Virus record (IMG/VR): IMGVR_UViG_3300030102_005481
Coordinates: 1 to 27,157 of that record
DNA: 27,157 nucleotides
Source: a virus
Direction: 5' to 3' (one strand)
Each line of letters opens with the position of its first letter. Positions within the stretch are counted from its first letter, which is position 1. Below are positions 3 through 13,379 of the stretch, one piece after another. The translations under genes and the position numbers were made by a program. Below the pieces are notes generated by a model, which was not told where the DNA came from, made no database searches, and saw only the letters and a program-made list of their open reading frames with translations.

Positions 3-1037
3 TTCAATATAAATAAATATGATATAGACTGCTCTAACTTTAGCCATCTATTGTGCGACGATGTTAATGCAGAGTTGGAGGAAAAATTTGCAAAATACGT
101 TGGAGCTAAATATGCATGTGTTGCAAACAGCGCCAGTAGCCTACTTTTTGTTTGCCTGGATATAACAAAAAGAATGTTGACAAGATACAGCTCTGATAAA
201 AAAGAAGCGATTAGAATGAATCCGGTGTTCTTACCATCCATAATACCTCCTGCCGTTGCGAACGTTGTGCATAATTCTGGAATGATGGGTATCTGGACTG
301 ACAATGTTGATTGGGTTGGAAGCTCTTATGTGCTATATGATTTTGCAAAAAGCGTGTGTTCCAAGAACTCGATAGAGATAAATACAAACTTTGAGGTTAA
401 GGGATATAAAATAATAGACTCTGCGCAAGAAGTTAGAAGAAATCAATTCGAAGAAGACTCCTGCTCTAAAGGCGATTTAATGGTTTTTAGTTTTTATCCT
501 ACTAAGCCTGTAGGCGGAATAGATGGTGGAATAGTTGTCTCTAATGATGAAGGAATAATTAATCATATAAGGTCAATGGTGAACTTGGGGTCTTCAGAAA
601 GCACCGCCAAGGACAGTTTCTTGAGAGCGAACACGATGGCTGGGTGGAAAATGAACGCTAATTCTGCGCAGTGTTATTACGCGCTACAGAATCTAAACAA
701 ATTAGATGATAAAAACGAAAAAATTTCTAGCATTAGAGAAATGTATAATGACGCGTTTAATCTTGAAAATAAAAGCTGTCACCTATACACCATAGACGTT
801 AAAGACAGGGTTAGATTTATGAATATAATGAAGAAAAATGAAATACAAACAGGAGTTCACTACAATGCTTGCCACAGGAAGCGGTTCTATAATATTGTAT
901 CTCCGCCTAGCCTGCCGTTATCTGAAAGTAAAAATTCACAAACAGTTAGCATACCATTAAACGAAACTTTAACTAAAGAAGACGCCGGTTACATAATAGG
1001 CAAAGTAAAAGAAAGCGAGTTGTTGATAGAAAAATGA
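3..1037 (+). CDS. DegT/DnrJ/EryC1/StrS-family PLP sugar aminotransferase, 5' end cut by window edge
   Basis: Probably transfers an amino group from an amino acid to a keto-sugar nucleotide in the cytoplasm, using pyridoxal phosphate. The match to the DegT/StrS family is by motif: the N-terminal AELEEKFAKYVGAKYACVANSA block, IIDSAQEV (PLP-ring contact), FSFYPTKPVGG with the PLP lysine encoded at 504-506, and a C-terminal GWKMNANSAQCYYALQNLNKL helix region. The frame has no stop back to position 3. The family normally carries a further 20-30 residues before AELEEKF, so I treat the gene as truncated by the left edge rather than starting at the TTG at 51, which has no ribosome binding site. The gene ends in an ATGA overlap with the RmlB-like gene. 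With the RmlB- and FdtA-like genes next to it, the likely role is FdtB/QdtB-type C3 amination. An ArnB, WecE or PseC-type specificity cannot be excluded. Confidence 0.85.
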   Translation, partial: FNINKYDIDCSNFSHLLCDDVNAELEEKFAKYVGAKYACVANSASSLLFVCLDITKRMLTRYSSDKKEAIRMNPVFLPSIIPPAVANVVHNSGMMGIWTDNVDWVGSSYVLYDFAKSVCSKNSIEINTNFEVKGYKIIDSAQEVRRNQFEEDSCSKGDLMVFSFYPTKPVGGIDGGIVVSNDEGIINHIRSMVNLGSSESTAKDSFLRANTMAGWKMNANSAQCYYALQNLNKLDDKNEKISSIREMYNDAFNLENKSCHLYTIDVKDRVRFMNIMKKNEIQTGVHYNACHRKRFYNIVSPPSLPLSESKNSQTVSIPLNETLTKEDAGYIIGKVKESELLIEK

Positions 1038-1948
1038 AAATAATGACGACTGGAGGAAGAGGTTTTATTGGAAGCCACTTTGTTGAAAAGGTTCTGAAAT
1101 TTAAGAATGTTTCATCGGTAATAGATTACGACTGCATGACCTATGCGGCAAGCAAATCTTTGCCCTTTGACGACAATCCTAAATATGAGCATGTAAATGA
1201 AAACATACAAGACATACAAAGACTTCCTCCGAATATAGACTATATCATCAATTTTGCCGCAGAGAGCCATGTAGATAATTCAATAGCTTCTCCAACAATA
1301 TTTATCGAAAGCAATGTGCTTGGCGTCTACAATTTGCTAGAGCTTATACGAGGAAAGGTATACTCTAGACCTCAGCTTATACACATCAGTACAGATGAAG
1401 TTTACGGTGATGCAGATGACGGGGATAGTCATTTTGACGAAGACCATAAGCTAACTCCAAGCAACCCATATGCTGGCTCCAAAGCGGCGGCTGAAATGAT
1501 GATTATGTCGTATGGAAGAACATTTGGAATAGATTATAAAATTACAAGAAGCACAAACAATTATGGCCCGAGACAATATCCTGAGAAGCTAATACCTAAG
1601 TGTATAGATTCAATTCAGTCTGGCAAAAAAATACCACTCCATGGAAATGGTAGCTATGTTAGAGATTGGATTCATGTCAAGGATAATGTTGATGGAATTT
1701 GGTATGTTATTGAATATGGGGAAAACAGAAACGTATATAACATAAGCGGCGACAATCCTTTGTCTAATATCGAGGTTGTTAAACAAGTTTGCTCTTGGTT
1801 TGGAATAGAAGATTACGAAAGTCATGTTGAATTTGTAGAAAACAGACTGGGCCAAGACGCAAGATATTCAATCAATAGTAGAAAAGCAGAAGACTTGGGG
1901 TGGTCAAGAAAATTTGAAAAAGGGCTAACTAATTATGTTGCATATTAA
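1034..1948 (+). CDS. RmlB-like dTDP-glucose 4,6-dehydratase (extended SDR)
   Basis: Converts dTDP-glucose to dTDP-4-keto-6-deoxyglucose with tightly bound NAD, the entry step to most deoxysugars. The N-terminus shows the Rossmann motif GxxGxxG (G7, G10, G13). The catalytic Thr-Asp-Glu triplet typical of RmlB is in STDEVYGD (T120, D121, E122), and the YxxxK pair is Y146/K150 in NPYAGSK. NNYGPRQYPEKLIP is the usual RmlB substrate-loop block. At 304 residues it is somewhat shorter than cellular RmlB (about 330-360), with the C-terminal part reduced. It starts inside the stop of the aminotransferase gene (ATGA) and overlaps the ketoisomerase gene by 14 bases, so translation is likely coupled. A UDP- or GDP-sugar dehydratase of the same superfamily is the main alternative, but the STDEVYG motif favours RmlB. 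Confidence 0.85.
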   Translation: MKIMTTGGRGFIGSHFVEKVLKFKNVSSVIDYDCMTYAASKSLPFDDNPKYEHVNENIQDIQRLPPNIDYIINFAAESHVDNSIASPTIFIESNVLGVYNLLELIRGKVYSRPQLIHISTDEVYGDADDGDSHFDEDHKLTPSNPYAGSKAAAEMMIMSYGRTFGIDYKITRSTNNYGPRQYPEKLIPKCIDSIQSGKKIPLHGNGSYVRDWIHVKDNVDGIWYVIEYGENRNVYNISGDNPLSNIEVVKQVCSWFGIEDYESHVEFVENRLGQDARYSINSRKAEDLGWSRKFEKGLTNYVAY

Positions 1949-2318
1949 TAAAGACAAAAGAGGTAGATTAATTTCTATGAATGATATTTTGCGTCAGATA
2001 CCTTTTACGGTAAAAAGGTTTATGCATATATCTGATGTTCCAGAAGGCGAGACAAGAGGCTATCACGCTCATCGAACTAATGAGCAACTTCTTCTGTGTT
2101 TTAGCGGCGAAGTGTCTGTTAAAACTATCAATAAAAACAGCCAGGGCGAGCTTGAGGAGAAAATTCACGAATTGAAAACTGGAGATTTTTTGTACATGCC
2201 GCCAATGACATGGGGTGAACAGACCTATCATAATGACGCTGTGCTTCATGTGCTTTGTTCCAAAAAATACAATGAGGATGATTATGTCAGAGACTATGAA
2301 GAATTCAAAAACAATTAG
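1935..2318 (+). CDS. FdtA/QdtA-type dTDP-4-keto-6-deoxyglucose 3,4-ketoisomerase (WxcM-like cupin)
   Basis: Moves the keto group of dTDP-4-keto-6-deoxyglucose from C4 to C3, making the substrate for a C3 aminotransferase. The 127-residue length is typical of a single cupin domain of this family. Family motifs are visible in order: RGYHAHRTNEQLL (H44 and H46 match the conserved His pair proposed to act in catalysis), CFSGEVSV, GDFLYMPPMTWGE and DAVLHVLCSKKYNEDDYVRDYEEF. The last block is a hallmark of FdtA/QdtA proteins. The start overlaps the RmlB-like gene by 14 bases. Together the three genes form a coherent pathway toward dTDP-Fuc3N or dTDP-Qui3N. I cannot tell galacto- from gluco-configuration by eye, so I give no symbol. 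Confidence 0.88.
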   Translation: MLHINKDKRGRLISMNDILRQIPFTVKRFMHISDVPEGETRGYHAHRTNEQLLLCFSGEVSVKTINKNSQGELEEKIHELKTGDFLYMPPMTWGEQTYHNDAVLHVLCSKKYNEDDYVRDYEEFKNN

Positions 2319-2778
2319 CTTTCTTATTGCTAACTCTGGCGCAAGTCAGATGTCGTTTTATTTGATAAATGAGTTAAATAAATTTTTCTCAAAAGATTCG
2401 CAAATAGACCCTATAGTTTACTATGAAGATAGGCACAGAAATTGTGTACCTCCAAATTTTTCTATGATGCAAATCTCAGAGGCTTGGTTTCAACCAGGAC
2501 CCATAATCGCAACATCTATTTCCACGGCCAAAAGTCTTATAGAATTTACGTCTCCTGAAAAATTTTTTTATGTTTGGGATTTGGAGTGGATTAGAAATAC
2601 TCCAGCTCAATCTGTGCAATATGAAAATTTTAAAGATGTGTACACAAATAAATCTTTGAAGCTGATAGCTCGCTCACAGAGCCACAAAAAGCTAATAGAA
2701 AACTGCTTCAATAGGGATGTTGATTACACTGTGGAAAACTTCAACATGCAACAAATTATGAGGATTGTAAATGAATAA
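2284..2778 (+). CDS. Protein of unknown function, possibly a partial GT-B glycosyltransferase
   Basis: I do not recognise this 164-residue protein with confidence. It starts with a hydrophobic beta-strand followed by a small-residue loop (ISFLIANSGASQMSFYL). Further strands follow (PIVYYEDRH, IIATSISTAKSLIEF, KFFYVWDLEWIR), then LKLIARSQSHKKLIENCF. This alternation resembles the N-terminal Rossmann-like half of GT-B glycosyltransferases, which would fit the sugar-nucleotide genes upstream, but such enzymes usually exceed 300 residues. I chose the ATG at 2284 because GAGG lies 6 bases before it. The ATG at 2296 is a possible alternative start. The open frame back to 2215 lies inside the ketoisomerase gene. 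It overlaps that gene by 35 bases and the endonuclease gene by 8, so it may be a remnant left by insertion of the endonuclease gene. Confidence 0.65.
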   Translation: MSETMKNSKTISFLIANSGASQMSFYLINELNKFFSKDSQIDPIVYYEDRHRNCVPPNFSMMQISEAWFQPGPIIATSISTAKSLIEFTSPEKFFYVWDLEWIRNTPAQSVQYENFKDVYTNKSLKLIARSQSHKKLIENCFNRDVDYTVENFNMQQIMRIVNE

Positions 2779-3550
2779 ATTAAAAGATAAAACATGGTGC
2801 TATAAGCAATACTGGATTTTGGAGAGGAGTATTGGGGATATAGCCAAGCAGCTTGATACATACCCAAATAAGGTCAGAAGGGCCTTAAAATCGCATGGAA
2901 TTAAACTTAGGGATAAGGGGTCCGCACAGGCAGTCGCTTTAAAAAAGGGCCGTAGCAGCCATCCTACGAAAGATAAGGGGCACTCTGAGGAGGCAAAGCT
3001 AAAAATTTCTGAAAGTGTTGCTCATAACTGGGAAAACTTGTCAGATGAAGAGCTAGAGGCTCGCAGAGAGACAGCTAGAAAGCAGTGGGCTAATATGTCT
3101 GAGGAAGACAAAACAAAGCTCAGAGAGGCGGCTGTTCCTGGCATAAAAAGGGCGTCTCAAGAAGGCTCTAAATTAGAAAAATACATTAGAGATAAATTGA
3201 CAAAAGAGAGCTATGTGATAGAATATCATAAGAAGGGGATTGTACCTAACGCTAATCTTGAGGTAGATATATATTTGCCAGAATTAGGCACGGCCATAGA
3301 GATAGACGGTCCTTCTCACTTTTTACCAATATGGGGAGATGAAGCTTTAAGAAAAACAATAAAGTCTGACAATGAAAAAAACGGACTTCTTAGGTATCAT
3401 GGGATAATGGTTCTTAGGGTAGCACAAAAGAAAAAGACGTTATCTCAAAAGGCCATGAGAGATACATGGAATAGTATTAAAAAAGAGCTTGAAGTTATAT
3501 CTGTAAAGATGCCGACAAAATCAGAAAGATTTAAAGAAATAGAGGTTTAA
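2771..3550 (+). CDS. Free-standing homing-type endonuclease: HTH, NUMOD3 and Vsr-like PD-(D/E)XK domain
   Basis: Predicted site-specific DNA endonuclease, likely selfish. Residues about 8-47 form a helix-turn-helix candidate (YWILERSIGDIAKQLD...RRALKSHGI). Residues 70-85 match the NUMOD3 DNA-binding repeat (GHSEEAKLKISES), and a second lysine/glutamate-rich helical copy may sit at 95-125. The C-terminal domain has the layout of Vsr/EDxHD-type nucleases of the PD-(D/E)XK fold: D166 in EVDIYLP, E177 and D179 in AIEIDGPSH, H183, then SDNEKNGLLRYHG with basic residues and a hydrophobic strand IMVLRV. Comparable phage proteins are the Hef-like and I-Bth0305I-type homing endonucleases. It overlaps the preceding gene by 8 bases and lies 3 bases before the annealase gene, so it is co-transcribed. 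A domesticated role in repair or recombination is an alternative. Confidence 0.75.
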   Translation: MNKLKDKTWCYKQYWILERSIGDIAKQLDTYPNKVRRALKSHGIKLRDKGSAQAVALKKGRSSHPTKDKGHSEEAKLKISESVAHNWENLSDEELEARRETARKQWANMSEEDKTKLREAAVPGIKRASQEGSKLEKYIRDKLTKESYVIEYHKKGIVPNANLEVDIYLPELGTAIEIDGPSHFLPIWGDEALRKTIKSDNEKNGLLRYHGIMVLRVAQKKKTLSQKAMRDTWNSIKKELEVISVKMPTKSERFKEIEV

Positions 3551-3553
3551 TTT

Positions 3554-4510
3554 ATGACTACCAAACATGGATACGAAGACGTAAGCGTGGCAAAGATTAG
3601 AGAGGAGCTTAAAACACTTGGGGTCGAAGATGAGGAAGTTCTGTCTCAAAGCAAAAAGCCATTGGTAGAATTGCTTTTAGAAACAAAAGAAGAAGTGAAA
3701 GAGGCTGACGAAATTTTGTTTGACGCAGAGATGGATGTGGAAGAAGACATACTTTCTGCTGTAGATAAAGATGCTTTAGTTGAAGGCAAATCTCTCGTAC
3801 AGCCAGCCTTTAATACAGAGAAGTGGTCTGAGTGGGTAATGTCTCGTTTTGCTGATGATGAGTTGGAGAATGGAGCCCCAACGTGCGATGGGCTTCGAAG
3901 AGTTACAGAAGATGTTCTTGGGCCAATAGCTAAAGTAGAGGTTATAAAAAATGACACCCCAACAGTGTCTAATAAAGGAAACGCAACGGTTGTTGTCGGC
4001 ATCACAATTGAACCAGTCTTGCTTGAGGGGCATCCTAGACAAGGTAAATCAATATACGTTGAAGACTTGGCAGATGCAAATAAGCTAAATACGCCAGAGG
4101 AAATATTTAAGCATCCTTCAGCTACTGCGGGTACTAGAGCAGAGTCTAGAGCATACCGAAAAATGCTCAGGCTTAGAAAAGTTCTTACAGCAGAAGAGCT
4201 TGCGTCAAACGAGACAAATTTAGAAGAAGATTGGTCTCCGTCTACGCCAATTACAGACCAGCAAATTACTGTGATAGACATGCTTTGTCAGCGAACAAAC
4301 ATAAGTGTGTCTGAATTTATTAACTGCGGAGACGCGAAGTATGTGTGCATAGAGCAAGTTTCAGAGCAGTCTGCACAAAAAATGCTTCAGTATTTAAATA
4401 GAATTCAAAGAAAAGACGCTCCAAGACCAGATGATGTGAGCGAATACGACGAAAACTGGAGAATAAAAAACGATGACTCAAGAGAAGAAAATTTTAGCAA
4501 AAGAGTATAG
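3554..4510 (+). CDS. Probable single-strand DNA annealing protein (RAD52/Red-beta-like) with SAP-like N-terminus
   Basis: The likely role is annealing of complementary single strands in phage recombination or repair. Residues 11-42 look like a short SAP-type helix pair (SVAKIREELKTLGV...KKPLVELLL). An acidic linker (43-75) follows. The core runs from about 112 to 215: a helix DGLRRVTEDVLG, strands IAKVEVIKN, ATVVVGITIE and SIYVEDLAD, then the helix ATAGTRAESRAYRKMLRLRK. This helix-strand-strand-strand-helix order, and the final helix rich in Ala, Arg and Thr, recall RAD52/ERF/Sak annealases. Residues 233-286 form a helical C-terminal domain (ITDQQITVIDMLCQRTNISV), of a kind I recall from phage annealing proteins. 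The tail is acidic. A weak AGAGG precedes the start. The call is by pattern only; a structure prediction would decide it. Confidence 0.5.
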   Translation: MTTKHGYEDVSVAKIREELKTLGVEDEEVLSQSKKPLVELLLETKEEVKEADEILFDAEMDVEEDILSAVDKDALVEGKSLVQPAFNTEKWSEWVMSRFADDELENGAPTCDGLRRVTEDVLGPIAKVEVIKNDTPTVSNKGNATVVVGITIEPVLLEGHPRQGKSIYVEDLADANKLNTPEEIFKHPSATAGTRAESRAYRKMLRLRKVLTAEELASNETNLEEDWSPSTPITDQQITVIDMLCQRTNISVSEFINCGDAKYVCIEQVSEQSAQKMLQYLNRIQRKDAPRPDDVSEYDENWRIKNDDSREENFSKRV

Positions 4511-5021
4511 GATATATAAGCCTAACTCCAAGGGAAGCGGAGCCGCCTCCAAGTTTCAATGCAGAACGAAATGGAAAACCATAGACAATAATGACTATGC
4601 GGAGCTAATACTTTTTTTAGAGACAGCATCTCAAAGTGGTGTTGATGGAAAAGGAAACGCATCTTTTAATTGGTCAAGTAGCGGTGAAAAGAATAAGGGT
4701 GGCTCAGTGACAATGAAGCTGGGTCTTCCAGATATAGGCGAAATGCTGCTGGTTCTAAAAGGGAGAAAAAAGTTTGTTGGCCCAGAACCAAAACAGGGTC
4801 GCTCTGTAGAACCTGGGCTTTATCATCAAAATAAAAATGGAAACACAAGCCTCAGACTAAAGTGGAGTGAAGGCAAGCTTTATTTAAATATATCATCGCA
4901 AGACTCTTCTAAAAAGGTCACGAAGATATCGCATAGCATTACTCCCGCAGAAGCAGCCGTGTTAGAATCTTTGCTAGATAACTTTATTGTTCAATATCAC
5001 AATTGGCAGCATCAGTATTAA
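4473..5021 (+). CDS. Small protein of unknown function, possible single-stranded DNA binding (Whirly/PC4-like) protein
   Basis: I do not recognise a named family. The 182-residue protein is strand-rich and basic. It has an N-terminal segment AKEYRIYKPN, a central glycine- and lysine-rich part (60-115, including KGGSVTMKLGLPDIGEML), and a C-terminal part with two strands (TSLRLKWSEG, LYLNISSQ) followed by the helix SITPAEAAVLESLLDNFI. A sheet closed by a helix of this sort, ending near an aromatic tail (HNWQHQY), is reminiscent of Whirly/PC4-type single-strand binding proteins. Its position directly after a probable annealase supports a DNA-binding role, since phage annealases often pair with a binding protein. 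GGAG lies 11 bases before the ATG. It overlaps the annealase gene by 38 bases in another frame, and its stop overlaps the stop of the opposing gene. Confidence 0.6.
   Translation: MTQEKKILAKEYRIYKPNSKGSGAASKFQCRTKWKTIDNNDYAELILFLETASQSGVDGKGNASFNWSSSGEKNKGGSVTMKLGLPDIGEMLLVLKGRKKFVGPEPKQGRSVEPGLYHQNKNGNTSLRLKWSEGKLYLNISSQDSSKKVTKISHSITPAEAAVLESLLDNFIVQYHNWQHQY
5018..5021. other. Convergent stop codons overlapping in TTAA
   Basis: The plus-strand TAA (5019-5021) of the small DNA-binding candidate and the minus-strand TAA (5018-5020) of the 213-residue structural protein share the bases TTAA. This is the only strand switch in the window. I see no inverted repeat with a T-run within about 60 bases on either side. 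Confidence 0.9.
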
Positions 5022-5695: not shown

Positions 5696-5926
5696 TTATT
5701 GTACTTCTGGCCATTTATTTTCAGGGCATTTCTGAGTGTGCCATCTAGCTTTTATTGCTATGATACAGCCACATTTAGCACAGTTTCCATCAATATTAAA
5801 TTTACATAAATCGCATTCATCTAGCCTTGTTTGGTATTCTCCGTCAGAAACTTTCTTCATGCCTGATAAAAAGTGGTGCCATAAGCTATTTAAGAAATTT
5901 GTTATTTTTTTATTAAGTCGTACCAT
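5696..5926 (-). CDS. Small cysteine-rich, zinc-ribbon-like protein
   Basis: A 76-residue basic protein. The N-terminal third is a basic amphipathic helix (MVRLNKKITNFLNSLWHHF). The C-terminal half holds six cysteines in the order CDLC, CAKCGC and a final CPENKW. This looks like a compact metal-binding knuckle and recalls small CxxC...CxxCGC...CPxxKW proteins often found near phage virion genes. I start it at 5926, inside the preceding hub gene, because GGAG lies at a good distance before that ATG. The longer open frame back to 5989 would be fully overlapped by a confident gene. The two genes overlap by 14 bases, so translation is probably coupled. The function is unknown: it could be a virion component, a chaperone-like factor or a regulator. 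Confidence 0.72.
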   Translation of the reverse strand: MVRLNKKITNFLNSLWHHFLSGMKKVSDGEYQTRLDECDLCKFNIDGNCAKCGCIIAIKARWHTQKCPENKWPEVQ

Positions 5927-8900
5927 TAGTATCTCCAGTGCTAGTGTCAGTTCCGCTGCTAGTGGACCCAACCGGACAATCTTCAACATCTATCCATATT
6001 ATTTGTTCCATTTCTCCAGCGTCGCCTACTTTAGTGTGTCCTAATACCTGAACTTTATTTGGGTCGTAATTATAATCAGTGCCCCCGACAAAACCGGCTC
6101 CATCAATCACATCTCCAGCGCTTGAATTCTTTCTCCAGGTCTCCCACAGATAGCATGGGAAATTTGCCCTTACTTCCGATATGGGTTCTGCATTAGGGCC
6201 TGTTGCTGAATCCACTCTCCTGTCAGAGAGAGGGCAAATTTTAAAATCTACCCACTTCACACAATCATTGTCGATTCCGCCACGCTCTCCCTCGCCTTCA
6301 TGGTATATAATTTGGGATATTGAGGACTTAAATCCAAAGTCAGCTATTATATTATCATTATTGACAGTTGCTTTCTCTACGTCGGTGAGGGCTCTGTTTG
6401 GATTTCTATAATCTTCGCCTGCGTCTCTATTTCCAGCTCCAGGCGCCCCACTATCGAACAGCATGCTTTCAATGTTAGATGGATAACAAATTGAGCCTGA
6501 AAGTTCAGATATAGAATCCCAAAGAAGTCGCGGGTCTCCTCCCTCTGAATCTTTGTGTGTAAGAAATTGTCTTTTGTTTGGGTTGAAGTTATAGTCAAAG
6601 TGTTGAGTGCTGTCGCTTCTACGTGTATTGTTAAAGCCTCCATGAGTCGTATCTGCTTCAGTATACCTAAGTATTTCTTCAAGAGTACACGCAAAAATTC
6701 CAGGCGCACCTTCTGCAATATTAGAACCAACAGCTTTACCAAAGGCTCCTGCAAGCGGCGGTGGTAGACTCCCTGTATCAGAGATTACCTGAATGTTACA
6801 AAAATCCAACCAATACACACATGGCCCATCTTCTTCCGTTCTAGAGCCAGTGCCTTCCCCTGCAATCGGTTGAAATTTTTCTTCGCTTGATTGATGAAAA
6901 AACATCTGGTTTCTATTTGGATTAAAATTATATTGATGCGTTTGGTTATTGTTTGGAAAACCGTTTCTTGGGTTGCCTGTGTTTTGTGCGTCATCCGCAA
7001 CATAATTGTATGTTTGCTCAAGAGTGCAGGGCAAGCAGTCTTGACCCCAAAAATCCATGCTATCATAACTACCGCTAGTTTCTTTTATTAGACAGTCCTT
7101 GTCCTCAACCCATCTAACCATCGGACAACCTTCGCCCGTCAAGGGGTTGCCTTCTTCCCCACCAGCAGAGCTAAAGTGAACTAGTTTTTGTTTTACATTT
7201 GGGTCAAAGCCACAATCATATGTCGGATTTGTTCCAACTGGGCTGTTTCGAGGATTGTTTGGATTTTTATCATCATCGGCAGCAAACTTATAAGTATCTT
7301 CTAAAGAGCAGGGAAGACAGCCGTGAGTTGTTGCAGGGTCTCCCTGACCGTACTTAATTCCTTCTGGGTCTGTTTTGGCACCGGCTGTCTCTTTTGGAAT
7401 TGCGCATTTAGGTTCATGTGTTATCCATCTAATACTTGGACCCTGGCTAGGGTCGTTTGCGTCTGGCCCTAGATTAGGAAGATGCGCTAATACTTGTGTG
7501 CATTGCGGCTTGAATCCAAAATCATTTACAGCCTTGTCAGAAATGACATTGTCTTGCGACAAAAGATTCCAGTCTCTATTATTGCCGTTGGCGTCTACGA
7601 GTGGACAATTGGCAGGGTCTTCCATCCAGCTAAATGTAGGGTCATACTTATAAGTGTCTTCAAGCGTGCAAGGAAATTGATTTTGTCCAAAAACAACCCT
7701 TCCCGCAGAGTCCGTAGCGGTTTGTTCTTCTATTTCGCATGTTTGAACGTCAAACCACTCAACTTTTGGACCTTCATCTCCGTCATAGAATGGGTCGGAA
7801 GTATCCAGTTGACCAAATTCATCTCGCGGAGTTTCAATTGGCTTATCATTTAAACCTCTTGATGATGCCCTAACAGCGTCTTTTATACCGCCAGCATGGT
7901 GCCCTAAAACTTGTTTTTTTGTTGGGTCAAAATTGTAACGTGTTTCATTGTTGTATCCCCACCAGTTATTTGGCTCTCCCGTATAGGGAGAATGAATACC
8001 ACCTAATATTCCCGCTGAATTGTGCTTATAGGTTTCACACAATGATTGAGGCCATATATCTTGACCCCATCTGTGTTTATCCGAATCTCTCTGAACATTA
8101 TAGTCTGGGCGTATCGATATCTCGCTGTTAATTGCATAATATCTTTCTATTAGCTCTTTATCTGTTTTAGAGTTTGCTAGTATTGAAGATTTGGGTATGG
8201 ATGCATAATACTCTGGTAGCCACTGAACATTAGGTAGCCGTGTAACGCTGGGTTGAGTATCTGTTGTGTCGTCTGAAAAAACCTCATAGTTTTTATGGCC
8301 TAAATGCTGCCTCCACAGAGGCTGAAAAGAAAAATCACACGCCGTATTTCTGCTTGCTTCGAAAATTCCATTGTTAGGAAGCTGGTCGTCTGTTGAGTCT
8401 TTGTCAACATTAACTTCCTCTGGAAGCATTGTTTCTTCTAGGCTGTCATAATTACTGTTTGTTTGCGCAGGTCTATCCGAGAAAGTCCAGAAATATGTTT
8501 TTTCTAAACTGCATGGAAAAGCACTAAGGCTATCACTGATACTGCTTGTCGTATAAGCGCACTCTCCTAAAGTGACCATCTTTTTGCCAGTTTCTTCATA
8601 ATTCGTAGAAGCATCTGACGTCGCTGGTATGTCACAATCAATCATGTCGCCCCATTTAACGATAGGCCCTTCCGGCAAAACGTCATCGTTTTGATTATCT
8701 AGCCCGCCGAAGATTTCTCTGTATCCAGCCTTTTCATGTATGAGGGCTTGTTTCTTGTTTGGATTGAAATTAAAATCATGAGTAGACTGGCTGCTTATAG
8801 GCTGTGATATCGTAAAATCTTCAAAGTCTTCACCAAAATCTGGGGTTTCAGTAAACTTATACATTTCTGCGAGAGTGCAGGGGAATCCTCCATCTTTCCC

Positions 8901-11900
8901 CTGAGAGGTTCCACGAACGCCTTTTCGTCCAAATGTTAATTCTTTGCCAGTGCCTTCCTCTTCAATATTTCCATTGTCATCAAGGACCGTATCATCTCTT
9001 GTTGTAATCGCTGGAATATCACACTCTTCTGAATCTAACCACTGAACAAAAGGCCCCTTACTTCCATCATTGCCATCGTCTACTGATGGGGCTTTAATAT
9101 GGCCTAATACCTGTTGCTTAAAAGGGTCAAAGTTAAAATTATATTGAGCGTTTTCGCTTATGACAGGATAAGCAGCGATGCCTTTTTCATCATCATCTTC
9201 CTGCCTAATCCACTTATATGTCTCCTCTAATGTACATGGAAAATGACCCTTGTCTCCCTTAAGCTCATGCCTTCCATATACATATTTACCTCTTATGTCG
9301 TCTGGCGGGTTTGGGTCGCCGCCTTGATATTGTGTAGTCTCATCTATCTCACATTGCGTGCTTAATTCGATAACTATTGGTCCTGGCCAACAATCAAAAT
9401 CTCTGTAGGCGTGACCTTGTTGGCCAACCGCAGCAGTCTCATAAATACCCAAATAATCAAAAACAACTACCTGTTGGTCAAGGTCGAGGCACGTTCCGGC
9501 TTCTGGATTTGCAGTGAATTGGCGGACTATTTCTGAGCGCTCATGTTGATTTACAATGACTGATGGAGCGGGGCAGCAAGGGTCGCTTGCCGCAGAATTA
9601 ACGGTTGCAACAGCATAGTATATACCTTCTGGAGCCCAGGGCAAGGGAAGCTCGCCAGACTTATCCCCCTCTGTTTGTACTTCATTTTTTTGAAAAACAC
9701 TAGTTAATGTGAAAGTAAGTATTTTAAATTTATTAGCAGGCTTGCTTGTCCAAAGTTTTCTTTGTTCATCCCACCTTAAATCAACCGGACCAGTTTTCCA
9801 CTTGTCAGACTGCCTTAGCCATTTTCTTTCAAAATCATGTGTTCTGTCAGCCCCCTTATTATTATTGGCGTTTGGAACAGGATAGCCATCTACATCATAT
9901 CCCCAGCCAGTTATAACCATAGGCCCTCTTAGTGCATATGGTCTAAGGTCTTTCTGTATCAGACTTCCAACTCTTTCATCTTCGTCAAGAGTTATTGGGG
10001 CTTTGTTTGAGTGAAGTATTGATTTAATGTCGGTTCCGCCAGCATCGCTGGACATTTCTAAATTTGCGGCGTCCTCTGCACCCATGTATGGATTTAAAGT
10101 TCTGTTATTAATTCCAAATCTAGAATAACCTCTAGTTATGTTAATACCCTGTTGATTATTTCCATCAACACTATTCCCAAACTGAGAATTTCTATCTGGG
10201 TCATACCCTATCGCTTTTCTTTCTTCGCCTTGAACTGTTTGGTCAATTAAGTATTGAGGGAAATTCGCAATTTCAGAACTTCCTCCACCCTCTACTGTGC
10301 TTATGATAAATGGCCTAAACAAACCATCTAAGCTAACACCTCCTCTTTTTTTGTACTCTTCGCCTTTTTTATCTAAACCTAGATTCCCTAGAACTGCTCT
10401 TAAAGGTTCTATGGCTGTGTAATTTGATTTTGGAGTAGCGTAAGTTCCATCGTCATTTCTAACTTCAGTTCCAGCAAAAGTCATTCCAACAATAAAATCA
10501 CTCTCGTCTCCGTTATCAAATCCAGTGTGCGCTATTTCATTTTGACCAGCGTTACCGCCTGTAATGCTGCCTGAATTTGTACCTCCAGTGCCACCTGAAG
10601 AATTTGTTTGTTGGTCTTGAAAAGCCTGTTGAATATTAAAAGGTTGGTTTCTAGCTATCGCAAGATTTAAATTTCTTTGAGTTTCATAGTTTTGTCTACC
10701 TTGCGCTTGAATATAATCCAATTGATTTCTACCAAGCTCTCCAAAATTTCTTATATGAGTTCTAAATGTAACTGTGGTAGTTATGCCTTGCATACCCATG
10801 CTAACGCTAACGCCAGTGATACTACCACCTCCATCTCCTCCGAAAGCTTGTCCAATTCCAGCGCCTATATATGATGGAGGTCCAGCGAATTGTATGCTCC
10901 CTTGCTCAACAACCTCTTGATATGAAATTGATGACTGAACCAATACGTCTCCGCCATCAGTCATATTCTTATAGCCACCAAAATTCCAAGGCGTTAGCTC
11001 AGAGTTTCTTTCGTAGTGAGAGCGACCTGTGCCTCCTGTTGACATTTGAAATTTATCTACAATTAATTTTCTAGTGCCGTCAACAGGACCATATGTTTTA
11101 GATTTATCCATAAATGGCGCTGCGGCTGCGCAAGGCATGTGAGCTTTAGGTATAAGCCCAAGCCCTCTTAATTTTGCACCACCAATTTGGCCAAACAGGT
11201 CTCTTATTCTTTGTCGCTCAGTGCCATCAAGAGCACCTCCACCATATTCTTCGCCTGAAAGTATCAATAGCCACAAAACGTAATCTAGTCCATACGGCGT
11301 TCCATCTTCTGCGGTTGCTATGGCTGGTCTAATATTTAATGAATCCGGAATTCCTATTATTATACCTGCGCCATTACCGGCTAAGTTACAAGGGTCATGT
11401 ATTCTTTCCACTCCAGCCTGAGCCCATATTCTATATGTTGGAGGCTTACCGGCTATTTTTTGCACATACGCTGGAACTTTTATTCTTGCTAAATCAACTT
11501 CAGAGGCTTCTTGTTGCCTTTGAATTTCAGCCAGTATCTGAGCGCTTACAACTCCTGTCGCTGTATCTTGACGAAATCCTTCAAAATATAACATTGGAAA
11601 AAGCTTGCCTTCGGGGCTTTTAAATACCTCAAGGACCGTGCTATTCCAATTATACCCAAGAATATTATCTATTGGACCGCCTATTCCACCGCTTCCATCA
11701 TTACCCCAGGCATAGCCAGAGTCTGTTTTTTCTAAGTTTGGTTTTCTTGCCGCTCCTGCGCCTGTTACACAACATTGTATGAAAGGCACGCCATTAATTT
11801 TTTCTGGAATGTTTAAGAAAAACTTTTTTCCGTAATTAGCGGCGAAACTTGATACAAAAGAATGCAAAGACCTTAAAGCTTCTTTGCCTATCTCGTTGTC

Positions 11901-13379
11901 GTTTATAAACGCGCTATATGCCCGCATAAATTCTTGAGTTTGATTTACGGCATTAGATAAGTCTGCGGTGTTATCTTCATTGATAAGAGGCCAAAGCACG
12001 TTAGGAGCAAACCTGCTTAACGGAGTGCCAAGAGGCATATTGCCATAAAGGGCTCGAAGTATTTCTGGCTTAAAAGCCGCCATAAATTCTATCCATGAAT
12101 CAAGGCTAAACGCAGCGGCTCTTATCTCTAAGACAGATATATTGTAATATGGACTGTTCCCTAACGCTGAATCTATTATTCCAAAAAAGGGACGCTGAGA
12201 AATATCAACATTAAAGTTTTCTCCATCGCCCTCGCCAACTGAAGTTATTGGAATCATATTGCCTTGCTGGTCAGGCTCTTCTCCCCAAAAATGCCTGATT
12301 GTGCCGCTTGTATCAGCTCCGTATGGGCTATTTGGGTTTCCATCGTCTGTTATGCCCTCGCACGGCGGCGCATCATCTTTAGGCGTATGATAAAATTCTT
12401 GTACTATTTGTAGATAATCACCATGAATAAGAACATCGCTTATTGGGTTAGCTAATTCAACTCCATATTGCATAGATTGAACGACATCATTAAAGCCAAC
12501 TGCATCTGGAGTTATTTCTCCAGAACACCTTTGCTGTAGGCCAGCAAATTTATATGCAACGCCAAATTTTAATCTGTCCTCTATGCTAGCGGATGACTGA
12601 TTCATTAAAACAGCGGTAGGAGATGCGGTGCTGGTGTCGTTAGTGTAAACTTTAATTACATTCATACCTCCAGTCGACTCAAGCGCAAGATAAACCTGCC
12701 TTGCAGTGACAGTTGCGAATCTATTTATGGCGTCTAAGACACTTGTGCTTTCACCGGTAAACCTAAGATTATTGTTTCCTGCAATATCTAGCTCACTTAA
12801 ATCCAACCTGTATTGAACACCAGCATGAACAAAAATCCATTTCATGTGCAAAGCTTTAACTATATCTCCCCAGGTTAAACCGACTTCATTACAAAAAGAG
12901 AAAAAAGTCATGCCGCGAAACGGAACTGGATTTTGTAAACGATGAATATTTATAAATTTGCCATTATTAAATGGAGCCTTATTTGGGTCGTAATCATCAA
13001 GGCCTTTTAATATTAACGTTGCATTTGACAAAATTACATGAGGGGTTATAACTCTAGCTGAGTAAGTCTTTCCACTCATGCTATTGTTTTGCTGCCAGCC
13101 TTGAAGTATGCCGTTATAAGCAAATCCATTATAAAAGAAGTAGGCGGTATCTCCTACAGCAGGAGGATTAAATCCACCTCCTCCGGCGCCGGAAACTGTG
13201 GTTGGTTCGCCTAACTCATTGTATACAAAAGCTGGGCAGTCGTCGTCAACAAGTTCTACAGAGACCTCTCCTGTCTCCAAGCCCCACCCGACTGTTGAAG
13301 TGAACCCGTATATTACAGAGCCATAAAACCTAGACGGGTAAAAAGATGGCCCGCTATAATTAGCTACATTTCTACTCAT
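5913..13379 (-). CDS. Giant tail hub/baseplate-like protein (2488 aa) with a C-terminal ten-repeat array
   Basis: Probably a virion protein at the tail tip. Residues 1-260 are beta-rich and look like a tail hub entry domain (NGILQGWQQNNSMSGKTYSA, ending in a region similar to hub proteins that wrap the central channel). Residues 330-850 are a long mixed domain with isolated cysteines. Near 870 the segment TTVTFRTHIRNFGELG recalls a strand seen in other phage tail proteins, followed by a Gln/Asn-rich linker (about 890-960). Residues about 1380-2480 are ten diverged repeats of roughly 70-150 residues, listed separately. The end is a Thr/Ser/Gly/Asp-rich tail. No membrane segment or enzymatic motif is obvious. 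TAGGAAAAGCGGAAATG gives a good start. The next upstream gene stops 21 bases earlier. The hub assignment is inference; the virion location is supported by context. A long adhesin-like receptor-binding role for the repeat arm is possible. Confidence 0.75.
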   Translation of the reverse strand: MSRNVANYSGPSFYPSRFYGSVIYGFTSTVGWGLETGEVSVELVDDDCPAFVYNELGEPTTVSGAGGGGFNPPAVGDTAYFFYNGFAYNGILQGWQQNNSMSGKTYSARVITPHVILSNATLILKGLDDYDPNKAPFNNGKFINIHRLQNPVPFRGMTFFSFCNEVGLTWGDIVKALHMKWIFVHAGVQYRLDLSELDIAGNNNLRFTGESTSVLDAINRFATVTARQVYLALESTGGMNVIKVYTNDTSTASPTAVLMNQSSASIEDRLKFGVAYKFAGLQQRCSGEITPDAVGFNDVVQSMQYGVELANPISDVLIHGDYLQIVQEFYHTPKDDAPPCEGITDDGNPNSPYGADTSGTIRHFWGEEPDQQGNMIPITSVGEGDGENFNVDISQRPFFGIIDSALGNSPYYNISVLEIRAAAFSLDSWIEFMAAFKPEILRALYGNMPLGTPLSRFAPNVLWPLINEDNTADLSNAVNQTQEFMRAYSAFINDNEIGKEALRSLHSFVSSFAANYGKKFFLNIPEKINGVPFIQCCVTGAGAARKPNLEKTDSGYAWGNDGSGGIGGPIDNILGYNWNSTVLEVFKSPEGKLFPMLYFEGFRQDTATGVVSAQILAEIQRQQEASEVDLARIKVPAYVQKIAGKPPTYRIWAQAGVERIHDPCNLAGNGAGIIIGIPDSLNIRPAIATAEDGTPYGLDYVLWLLILSGEEYGGGALDGTERQRIRDLFGQIGGAKLRGLGLIPKAHMPCAAAAPFMDKSKTYGPVDGTRKLIVDKFQMSTGGTGRSHYERNSELTPWNFGGYKNMTDGGDVLVQSSISYQEVVEQGSIQFAGPPSYIGAGIGQAFGGDGGGSITGVSVSMGMQGITTTVTFRTHIRNFGELGRNQLDYIQAQGRQNYETQRNLNLAIARNQPFNIQQAFQDQQTNSSGGTGGTNSGSITGGNAGQNEIAHTGFDNGDESDFIVGMTFAGTEVRNDDGTYATPKSNYTAIEPLRAVLGNLGLDKKGEEYKKRGGVSLDGLFRPFIISTVEGGGSSEIANFPQYLIDQTVQGEERKAIGYDPDRNSQFGNSVDGNNQQGINITRGYSRFGINNRTLNPYMGAEDAANLEMSSDAGGTDIKSILHSNKAPITLDEDERVGSLIQKDLRPYALRGPMVITGWGYDVDGYPVPNANNNKGADRTHDFERKWLRQSDKWKTGPVDLRWDEQRKLWTSKPANKFKILTFTLTSVFQKNEVQTEGDKSGELPLPWAPEGIYYAVATVNSAASDPCCPAPSVIVNQHERSEIVRQFTANPEAGTCLDLDQQVVVFDYLGIYETAAVGQQGHAYRDFDCWPGPIVIELSTQCEIDETTQYQGGDPNPPDDIRGKYVYGRHELKGDKGHFPCTLEETYKWIRQEDDDEKGIAAYPVISENAQYNFNFDPFKQQVLGHIKAPSVDDGNDGSKGPFVQWLDSEECDIPAITTRDDTVLDDNGNIEEEGTGKELTFGRKGVRGTSQGKDGGFPCTLAEMYKFTETPDFGEDFEDFTISQPISSQSTHDFNFNPNKKQALIHEKAGYREIFGGLDNQNDDVLPEGPIVKWGDMIDCDIPATSDASTNYEETGKKMVTLGECAYTTSSISDSLSAFPCSLEKTYFWTFSDRPAQTNSNYDSLEETMLPEEVNVDKDSTDDQLPNNGIFEASRNTACDFSFQPLWRQHLGHKNYEVFSDDTTDTQPSVTRLPNVQWLPEYYASIPKSSILANSKTDKELIERYYAINSEISIRPDYNVQRDSDKHRWGQDIWPQSLCETYKHNSAGILGGIHSPYTGEPNNWWGYNNETRYNFDPTKKQVLGHHAGGIKDAVRASSRGLNDKPIETPRDEFGQLDTSDPFYDGDEGPKVEWFDVQTCEIEEQTATDSAGRVVFGQNQFPCTLEDTYKYDPTFSWMEDPANCPLVDANGNNRDWNLLSQDNVISDKAVNDFGFKPQCTQVLAHLPNLGPDANDPSQGPSIRWITHEPKCAIPKETAGAKTDPEGIKYGQGDPATTHGCLPCSLEDTYKFAADDDKNPNNPRNSPVGTNPTYDCGFDPNVKQKLVHFSSAGGEEGNPLTGEGCPMVRWVEDKDCLIKETSGSYDSMDFWGQDCLPCTLEQTYNYVADDAQNTGNPRNGFPNNNQTHQYNFNPNRNQMFFHQSSEEKFQPIAGEGTGSRTEEDGPCVYWLDFCNIQVISDTGSLPPPLAGAFGKAVGSNIAEGAPGIFACTLEEILRYTEADTTHGGFNNTRRSDSTQHFDYNFNPNKRQFLTHKDSEGGDPRLLWDSISELSGSICYPSNIESMLFDSGAPGAGNRDAGEDYRNPNRALTDVEKATVNNDNIIADFGFKSSISQIIYHEGEGERGGIDNDCVKWVDFKICPLSDRRVDSATGPNAEPISEVRANFPCYLWETWRKNSSAGDVIDGAGFVGGTDYNYDPNKVQVLGHTKVGDAGEMEQIIWIDVEDCPVGSTSSGTDTSTGDTNGTT
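5933..5936 (-). promoter_or_regulatory. Ribosome binding site that fixes the start of the small zinc-ribbon-like gene
   Basis: GGAG on the minus strand, followed by ATACTA and then the ATG at 5926. It lies within the last codons of the 2488-residue gene and supports the internal start over the upstream ATG at 5989. Confidence 0.6.
5940..9243 (-). repeat. Ten diverged cysteine-containing protein repeats in the hub-like protein
   Basis: Each unit has three landmarks in order: an entry block like FPCTLEETYKY, a middle block like YNFNPNKKQVLGH, and an exit block like GPxVxWxDxxxCxI. Entry blocks begin near 9243, 8886, 8520, 8058, 7676, 7318, 7034, 6697, 6493 and 6163, so spacing varies from about 200 to 460 bases through loops of different length. 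Units 3, 4, 8 and 9 have lost one or more landmark residues, including cysteines. A half-unit (GPIVIELSTQCEIDE, near 9340-9390) precedes unit 1. Divergence at the DNA level is high, so this is an old duplication rather than a recent expansion. Confidence 0.85.

Follow-up and report, generated by a model that had tools for sequence, protein, structure and literature searches.

Large clusters of sugar genes have been known in marine phages since P-SSM2, and both their function and the target that they decorate are still debated. The T4-like cyanophages P-SSM2, S-SSM7 and S-SCSM1 carry clusters of LPS genes (PMC2984593; PMC3037559; PMC9602691). The 24 LPS genes of P-SSM2 were suggested to change the host surface (PMC2984593), and the function of the cyanophage clusters was also left open, with stuffer DNA among the explanations considered (PMC3037559). 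Glycosylation of the virion itself is reported for mycobacteriophages (Freeman et al., 2023, as cited in a passage of PMC12619734). In bacteria, the dTDP-Fuc3N and dTDP-Qui3N pathway of S-layers and O-antigens consists of RmlA, RmlB, FdtA or QdtA and FdtB or QdtB, and enzymes of the same families are encoded in one operon of the phage DNA described here.

The DNA analyzed (the window; 27,157 nucleotides) is the left end, positions 1-27157, of a 53,496-base IMG/VR virus record (G000). Its first 2.3 kb carry, on the plus strand, genes for a DegT/DnrJ/EryC1 PLP aminotransferase with its 5' end missing (3-1037; PF01041, E 2e-31), an RmlB-type dTDP-glucose 4,6-dehydratase (1034-1948; PF16363 and TIGR01181) and an FdtA-type cupin 3,4-ketoisomerase (1935-2318; PF05523, E 1e-32). 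These Pfam and NCBIfam matches confirm the three identities given in a first-pass annotation of the sequence, which had listed the genes in the order of the reactions; the steps hold, but the order on the DNA is aminotransferase, RmlB, FdtA. The aminotransferase and RmlB genes overlap by 4 nt and the RmlB and FdtA genes by 14 nt, and further overlapping ORFs follow 3' of FdtA (2296-2778, then 2771-3550, both on the plus strand). The start codon of the aminotransferase is missing, as its gene runs off the left end of the record, and about 15-18 N-terminal residues are lacking in comparison with the copies of relatives. On balance, we lean towards the view that this trio closes, at the 3' end, a phage island for glycan assembly and makes a dTDP-3-amino-3,6-dideoxyhexose, most likely dTDP-Fuc3N, for a glycan on a phage protein.

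The first of the ORFs to the right (2296-2778) encodes a 160-aa product that may correspond to the N-terminal half of a GT-B glycosyltransferase. It had no match among the sequence families searched; its AlphaFold2 model (pLDDT 82) was matched by Foldseek to WaaG, BshA and MshA with a probability of about 1 and TM of 0.55-0.64 but a weak E of 0.006. The second (2771-3550; phrog_559, E 2e-14) is an HNH/homing-endonuclease-like gene. The "phage recombination genes" previously placed beside the cassette were not confirmed, since 2771-3550 matches HNH/homing-endonuclease PHROGs and the proteins of 3554-4510 and 4473-5021 match no known family. Elsewhere in the window, a 2488-aa ORF (5913-13379, minus strand) carries many copies of LPCTLE-TYK / NFDPNKKQVLGH-like units towards its C terminus, in the second half, and reads as a repeated structural protein. 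Outside the window, a GDP-mannose 4,6-dehydratase (GMD) gene of the same record (49559-50626, minus strand; L004:9060-10127) adjoins the large terminase, and this neighborhood is conserved in relatives, including the distant L032, whose terminase is 60% identical.

A scan of viral contigs with the ketoisomerase found locus L005 in the 93.7-kb contig G001, and scans with the large terminase and the 3554-4510 protein found G002, G003, G004 and G005; G002 is 148.8 kb long and its terminase is 94% identical to that of our record. The three genes form the right end of a long co-directional island, with the aminotransferase directly 5' of RmlB-FdtA, in G001, G002, G003 and G005; as the last two hardly differ from each other, this amounts to three independent lineages. 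The small ORF is kept in all five relatives with the locus and the HNH gene lies at the same place in G001-G005; these two always form the right boundary. The island in G001 and G002 has 32 ORFs in the same order over about 26 kb, with local replacements in G003 and G005. Thus, the overlaps of the three-gene cassette stand, but it is not a stand-alone unit, since the trio is the tail of an island of about 32 genes in relatives. The window contig stops at the aminotransferase and the remainder of the island is seen in relatives, outside the G000 contig; we infer that the window's own phage carries it beyond the contig end.

According to Pfam, the G001 island encodes three GT4-type, several GT2-like, a weak GT8-like, a PF13524-type and a GT29 glycosyltransferase, MobA-like and CTP nucleotidyltransferases, FkbM, CmcI, TylF and C-methyltransferases, and GDP-fucose-synthase-like, sulfotransferase, PhyH, DHDPS and KDO8P-synthase-like proteins. 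A CMP-sugar-transferase gene is also present in G001, and an SDR epimerase, an RmlD-like protein and an RmlC-like cupin precede the aminotransferase, RmlB and FdtA. The search of the flanks for RmlA, acetyltransferase and glycosyltransferase genes therefore yielded at least eight glycosyltransferases in the island, and neither RmlA nor an N-acetyltransferase was seen in the islands of the relatives. Such absences are provisional: every record is a contig of the linear class and possibly incomplete. In G002, a UDP-galactopyranose mutase-like ORF was seen by eye beside glycosyltransferase-like ORFs at about 99.4-101.3 kb (L056), possibly a second glycan locus.

The RmlB-type protein keeps the GxxGxxG, TDE and YxxxK motifs (TGGRGFIG at 6, TDEVYG at 120 and YAGSK at 146). 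Its TIGR01181 score, 324 bits, is below the trusted cut-off of 365 bits, but this is still by far the top model, and the closest solved structure is an annotated dTDP-glucose 4,6-dehydratase (E 1e-73). The FdtA-type protein matches PF05523 as a full-length domain (113 bits against a cut-off of 23; profile 9-128 of 131), and no matching FdtA family was found in PHROGs. The catalytic pair corresponding to His51/His53 of QdtA is kept as GYHAH in all four phage copies. Its top solved-structure match is 4ZU4 (E 1.5e-24, 44% identity), with which it has PPMTWG, Arg17 and Gly97 in common; Arg17 and Gly97 occur in all four phage FdtAs. Wild-type QdtA has Tyr17/Arg97 and the FdtA structure 2PA7 has Arg17/His97. 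The phage residue 17 is FdtA-like, and Gly97 fits neither FdtA nor QdtA but matches 4ZU4. This pattern makes a product of the galacto (Fuc3N) series more likely, short of proof. At the position of Tyr37 of QdtA, its proposed general acid, the four phage copies have Met, 4ZU4 has Phe, and 2PA7 and 4ZU7 have Tyr; Tyr37 is not universal in the family because 4ZU4 has Phe there. The structures 4ZU4 and 4MZU presumably represent the ketoisomerase domain of the WxcM-like FdtD from Shewanella denitrificans, an enzyme of the Fuc3NAc pathway. As judged from its residues, the phage FdtA resembles this Fuc3N-type enzyme most.

RmlB is under strong purifying selection (dN/dS 0.02-0.04) and FdtA is also under purifying selection (dN/dS about 0.06-0.11 where measurable), while the synonymous sites of the aminotransferase are saturated and give no reliable estimate. 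The proposal raised for the cyanophage LPS clusters that such genes are non-functional stuffer DNA from the host (PMC3037559) would be consistent with the lower GC of the island (0.37-0.38, against 0.42-0.43 in the structural region). The low dN/dS of RmlB and FdtA (0.02-0.11 together) argues against it, as do the intact overlapping ORFs and the gene order kept in diverged relatives, and we consider it extremely improbable. Between the window phage and G002, RmlB is about 95% identical in nucleotides (dS 0.30), whereas the aminotransferase (59%) and FdtA (70%) are far more diverged. This sharp mosaic suggests allele exchange around RmlB.

The aminotransferase of the window keeps the PLP-binding Lys (YPTKPVGG, residue 168 of the fragment). 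It is 50-54% identical to the copies in G001, G002 and G003 and 39% identical to that in G004; among the plasmid matches listed, identity is about 24%. The first-pass annotation implied a place within the FdtB/QdtB clade. Instead, the phage aminotransferases are a deep separate clade, and forcing them together with the QdtB/WlaRG/HCAN_0200 group was rejected (AU p 0.0006); a looser placement as sister to the wider QdtB-containing group (p 0.097) and a grouping with ArnB (p 0.19) were not rejected. Moreover, the 4-aminotransferase ArnB scores above QdtB in profile ranking, NCBIfam names no subtype (top model PseC, 86 against a cut-off of 424), and Foldseek matched the structural model (pLDDT 72) about equally to QdtB, ArnB, PseC, DesV and WlaRG. 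C3 specificity thus rests on context, because the enzyme lies outside the QdtB/WlaRG clade. In the best tree, the nearest sequences are viral aminotransferases with Wlb-like neighborhoods (support 92/94, not decisive), and a look at these neighborhoods suggests that those enzymes aminate UDP-sugars at C3.

The context includes two informative loci. In G004, the left half of the island is present, together with an aminotransferase homologue (L051:9793-10779) that adjoins an Fcl-like gene, and neither RmlB nor FdtA was found. The Lys conserved in G001-G003 and L052 is lost in the alignment column of this homologue, which reads YPNTPMWG with Thr in place of Lys and is otherwise intact; it is possibly a non-catalytic or repurposed protein. 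Nothing in these data speaks more strongly for joint action of the three genes than the combined loss of RmlB, FdtA and the Lys. On the bacterial side, a scan of genome contigs found a single relative, L052, in a metagenomic bin (contig CAJQGZ010000125.1), with consecutive genes for the aminotransferase, FdtA, RmlB and RmlA. Its aminotransferase falls within the phage clade (support 100/100), GT2-MT genes lie upstream as in the phage island, Fcl and GMD are also present, and its glycosyltransferases are up to 59% identical to those of the phage island. L052 may be a bacterial donor locus or binned phage DNA.

It could be argued that the aminotransferase works at C4 or on another nucleotide sugar, such as GDP-4-keto-6-deoxymannose supplied via the phage GMD, with FdtA serving a different branch. 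Its exclusion from the QdtB clade, the tolerated grouping with ArnB, the GMD gene of its own record and the G004 homologue beside Fcl without RmlB or FdtA would all fit, yet that homologue lacks the catalytic Lys, the four genes are contiguous in L052, the aminotransferase immediately precedes RmlB-FdtA in four relatives, and the nearest viral enzymes have Wlb-like neighbors. We regard this alternative as unlikely, and a C3-amino sugar as the probable product of the cassette.

The dTDP-Fuc3N/Qui3N pathway named in the first-pass annotation is therefore still the best reading, with the RmlB and FdtA motifs on its side and the clade placement of the aminotransferase against it. RmlA (PF00483) is absent from all nine phage records, and dTDP-glucose is therefore probably supplied by the host; of the two sources suggested earlier, a gene further to the left is not borne out by these records. 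The reactions and their stereochemistry we infer from the gene identities and motifs. Host RmlA would make dTDP-glucose, which the phage RmlB would convert to dTDP-4-keto-6-deoxyglucose; FdtA would shift the keto group to C3, more likely in the galacto configuration, and the aminotransferase would aminate C3 to give a dTDP-3-amino-3,6-dideoxyhexose, most likely dTDP-Fuc3N. The island glycosyltransferases may then join the amino sugar with a CMP-ulosonate sugar, a GDP-fucose-type sugar, methyl and sulfate into a cytoplasmic oligosaccharide, for which our best guess of acceptor is a phage structural protein.

Simple hydropathy predicts no transmembrane segment in any protein of the 32-gene island, and in the 148.8-kb relative hydrophobic stretches are found only in very large structural or tape-measure-like proteins, a few proteins with isolated segments and small ORFs. 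Six phage records yielded neither Wzx (PF01943) nor an initiating transferase (PF02397), families that these searches did detect in 13 and 9 of 14 control genomes, respectively. Together, these results favor a soluble acceptor, for which a virion protein would be the simplest candidate, although host lipid carriers, or an LPS core modified in the cytoplasm, may be compatible with the same absences. Accordingly, the same chemistry could place the chain on the host envelope, as LPS core or a lipid-linked O-unit, through a host carrier and flippase, and block superinfection or grazing. The KDO8P-synthase-like and CMP-sugar-transferase genes of G001 recall LPS core, the diverse aminotransferase and FdtA alleles are as expected for surface antigens, and P-SSM2 with its 24 LPS genes is a precedent for a proposed host-surface change (PMC2984593). 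None of the membrane components was found in the island, but enzymes of the LPS core need not be membrane-bound, and whatever else is needed could come from the host; we hold this reading possible but rather doubtful. Phage glycosyltransferases that modify DNA exist (cited in a passage of PMC12619734), and the island might likewise glycosylate DNA bases. However, the thymidylate-synthase/hydroxymethylase family (PF00303), the one family searched in this respect, is absent from the six phage records, and the sulfotransferases, ulosonate synthases and at least eight glycosyltransferases suit a long glycan better, which makes this reading very improbable. Among the roles proposed in the first-pass annotation, virion decoration and host-surface change are both still candidates, and DNA decoration looks the least likely.

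Returning to the virion glycan that we favor, the island also varies by modules. Where G001 and G002 have the KDO8P-synthase-like gene, G003 (L048:3579-7171) and G005 carry a kinase-like gene, a different DHDPS-family gene and a synthase of the NeuB type (sialic-acid family) that is fused to a TIM-barrel domain. This swapped slot lies next to the conserved GT29 gene, of the sialyltransferase family, and is bounded on its other side by a conserved PseF-like CMP-transferase gene. We tentatively suggest that a lineage of environmental phages of about 150 kb encodes nearly all steps, with soluble proteins throughout, towards a complex virion glycan composed of an amino-dideoxyhexose, a methyl-branched deoxysugar, a fucose-type sugar, a CMP-ulosonic acid and sulfate. 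Swapping of modules (KDO8P-type or NeuB-type synthase) and of alleles (RmlB almost unchanged between aminotransferase and FdtA genes that have diverged) would then be a phage analogue of O-serotype switching. Conserved order, purifying selection, no detected membrane export genes and module swaps lead to specific predictions on the identity of the sugar, on the host as the source of dTDP-glucose and on the virion as a possible site of the product. If these are true, phages wear sugar coats comparable to serotypes, and the genome sequence reveals their chemistry.

As for precedents, four FdtA matches in INPHARED, all named "Bacteriophage sp.", were rejected: the two examined look like bacterial O-antigen DNA, because they have RmlA- and polysaccharide-flippase-like genes and no recognized phage gene. 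No genuine phage record with FdtA was thus found in INPHARED among the four matches, two of which were examined.

Compared with the bacterial dTDP-Fuc3N/Qui3N pathway, the phage enzymes keep the ketoisomerase HxH, the aminotransferase Lys and the motifs of RmlB; the phage records differ in the missing RmlA, in that no N-acyltransferase was seen, in the deep clade of the aminotransferase and in the phage location. The phage FdtA is like 4ZU4/4MZU, its closest solved structure, in having a non-Tyr residue at position 37, but 4MZU is a two-domain protein of 312 aa with the ketoisomerase at 180-300, whereas the phage protein is the ketoisomerase domain alone, with Met37. Like the mycobacteriophage system, the island has phage glycosyltransferases and a virion protein as the proposed acceptor; virion glycosylation in mycobacteriophages involves few glycosyltransferase genes, in contrast to the 30-gene pathway here. 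With the cyanophage LPS clusters it shares a large set of glycosyltransferases and of enzymes that make sugar nucleotides, GMD, Fcl and RmlB among them. On the other hand, the phage lineage is another one, with TerL at most about 27% identical to those of INPHARED phages, and the genes are arranged in one island of about 26 kb with FdtA, a CMP-ulosonate branch, GT29 and sulfotransferases. The present island is thus a locus of the cyanophage LPS-cluster kind in a distant phage lineage, with a different set of sugars.
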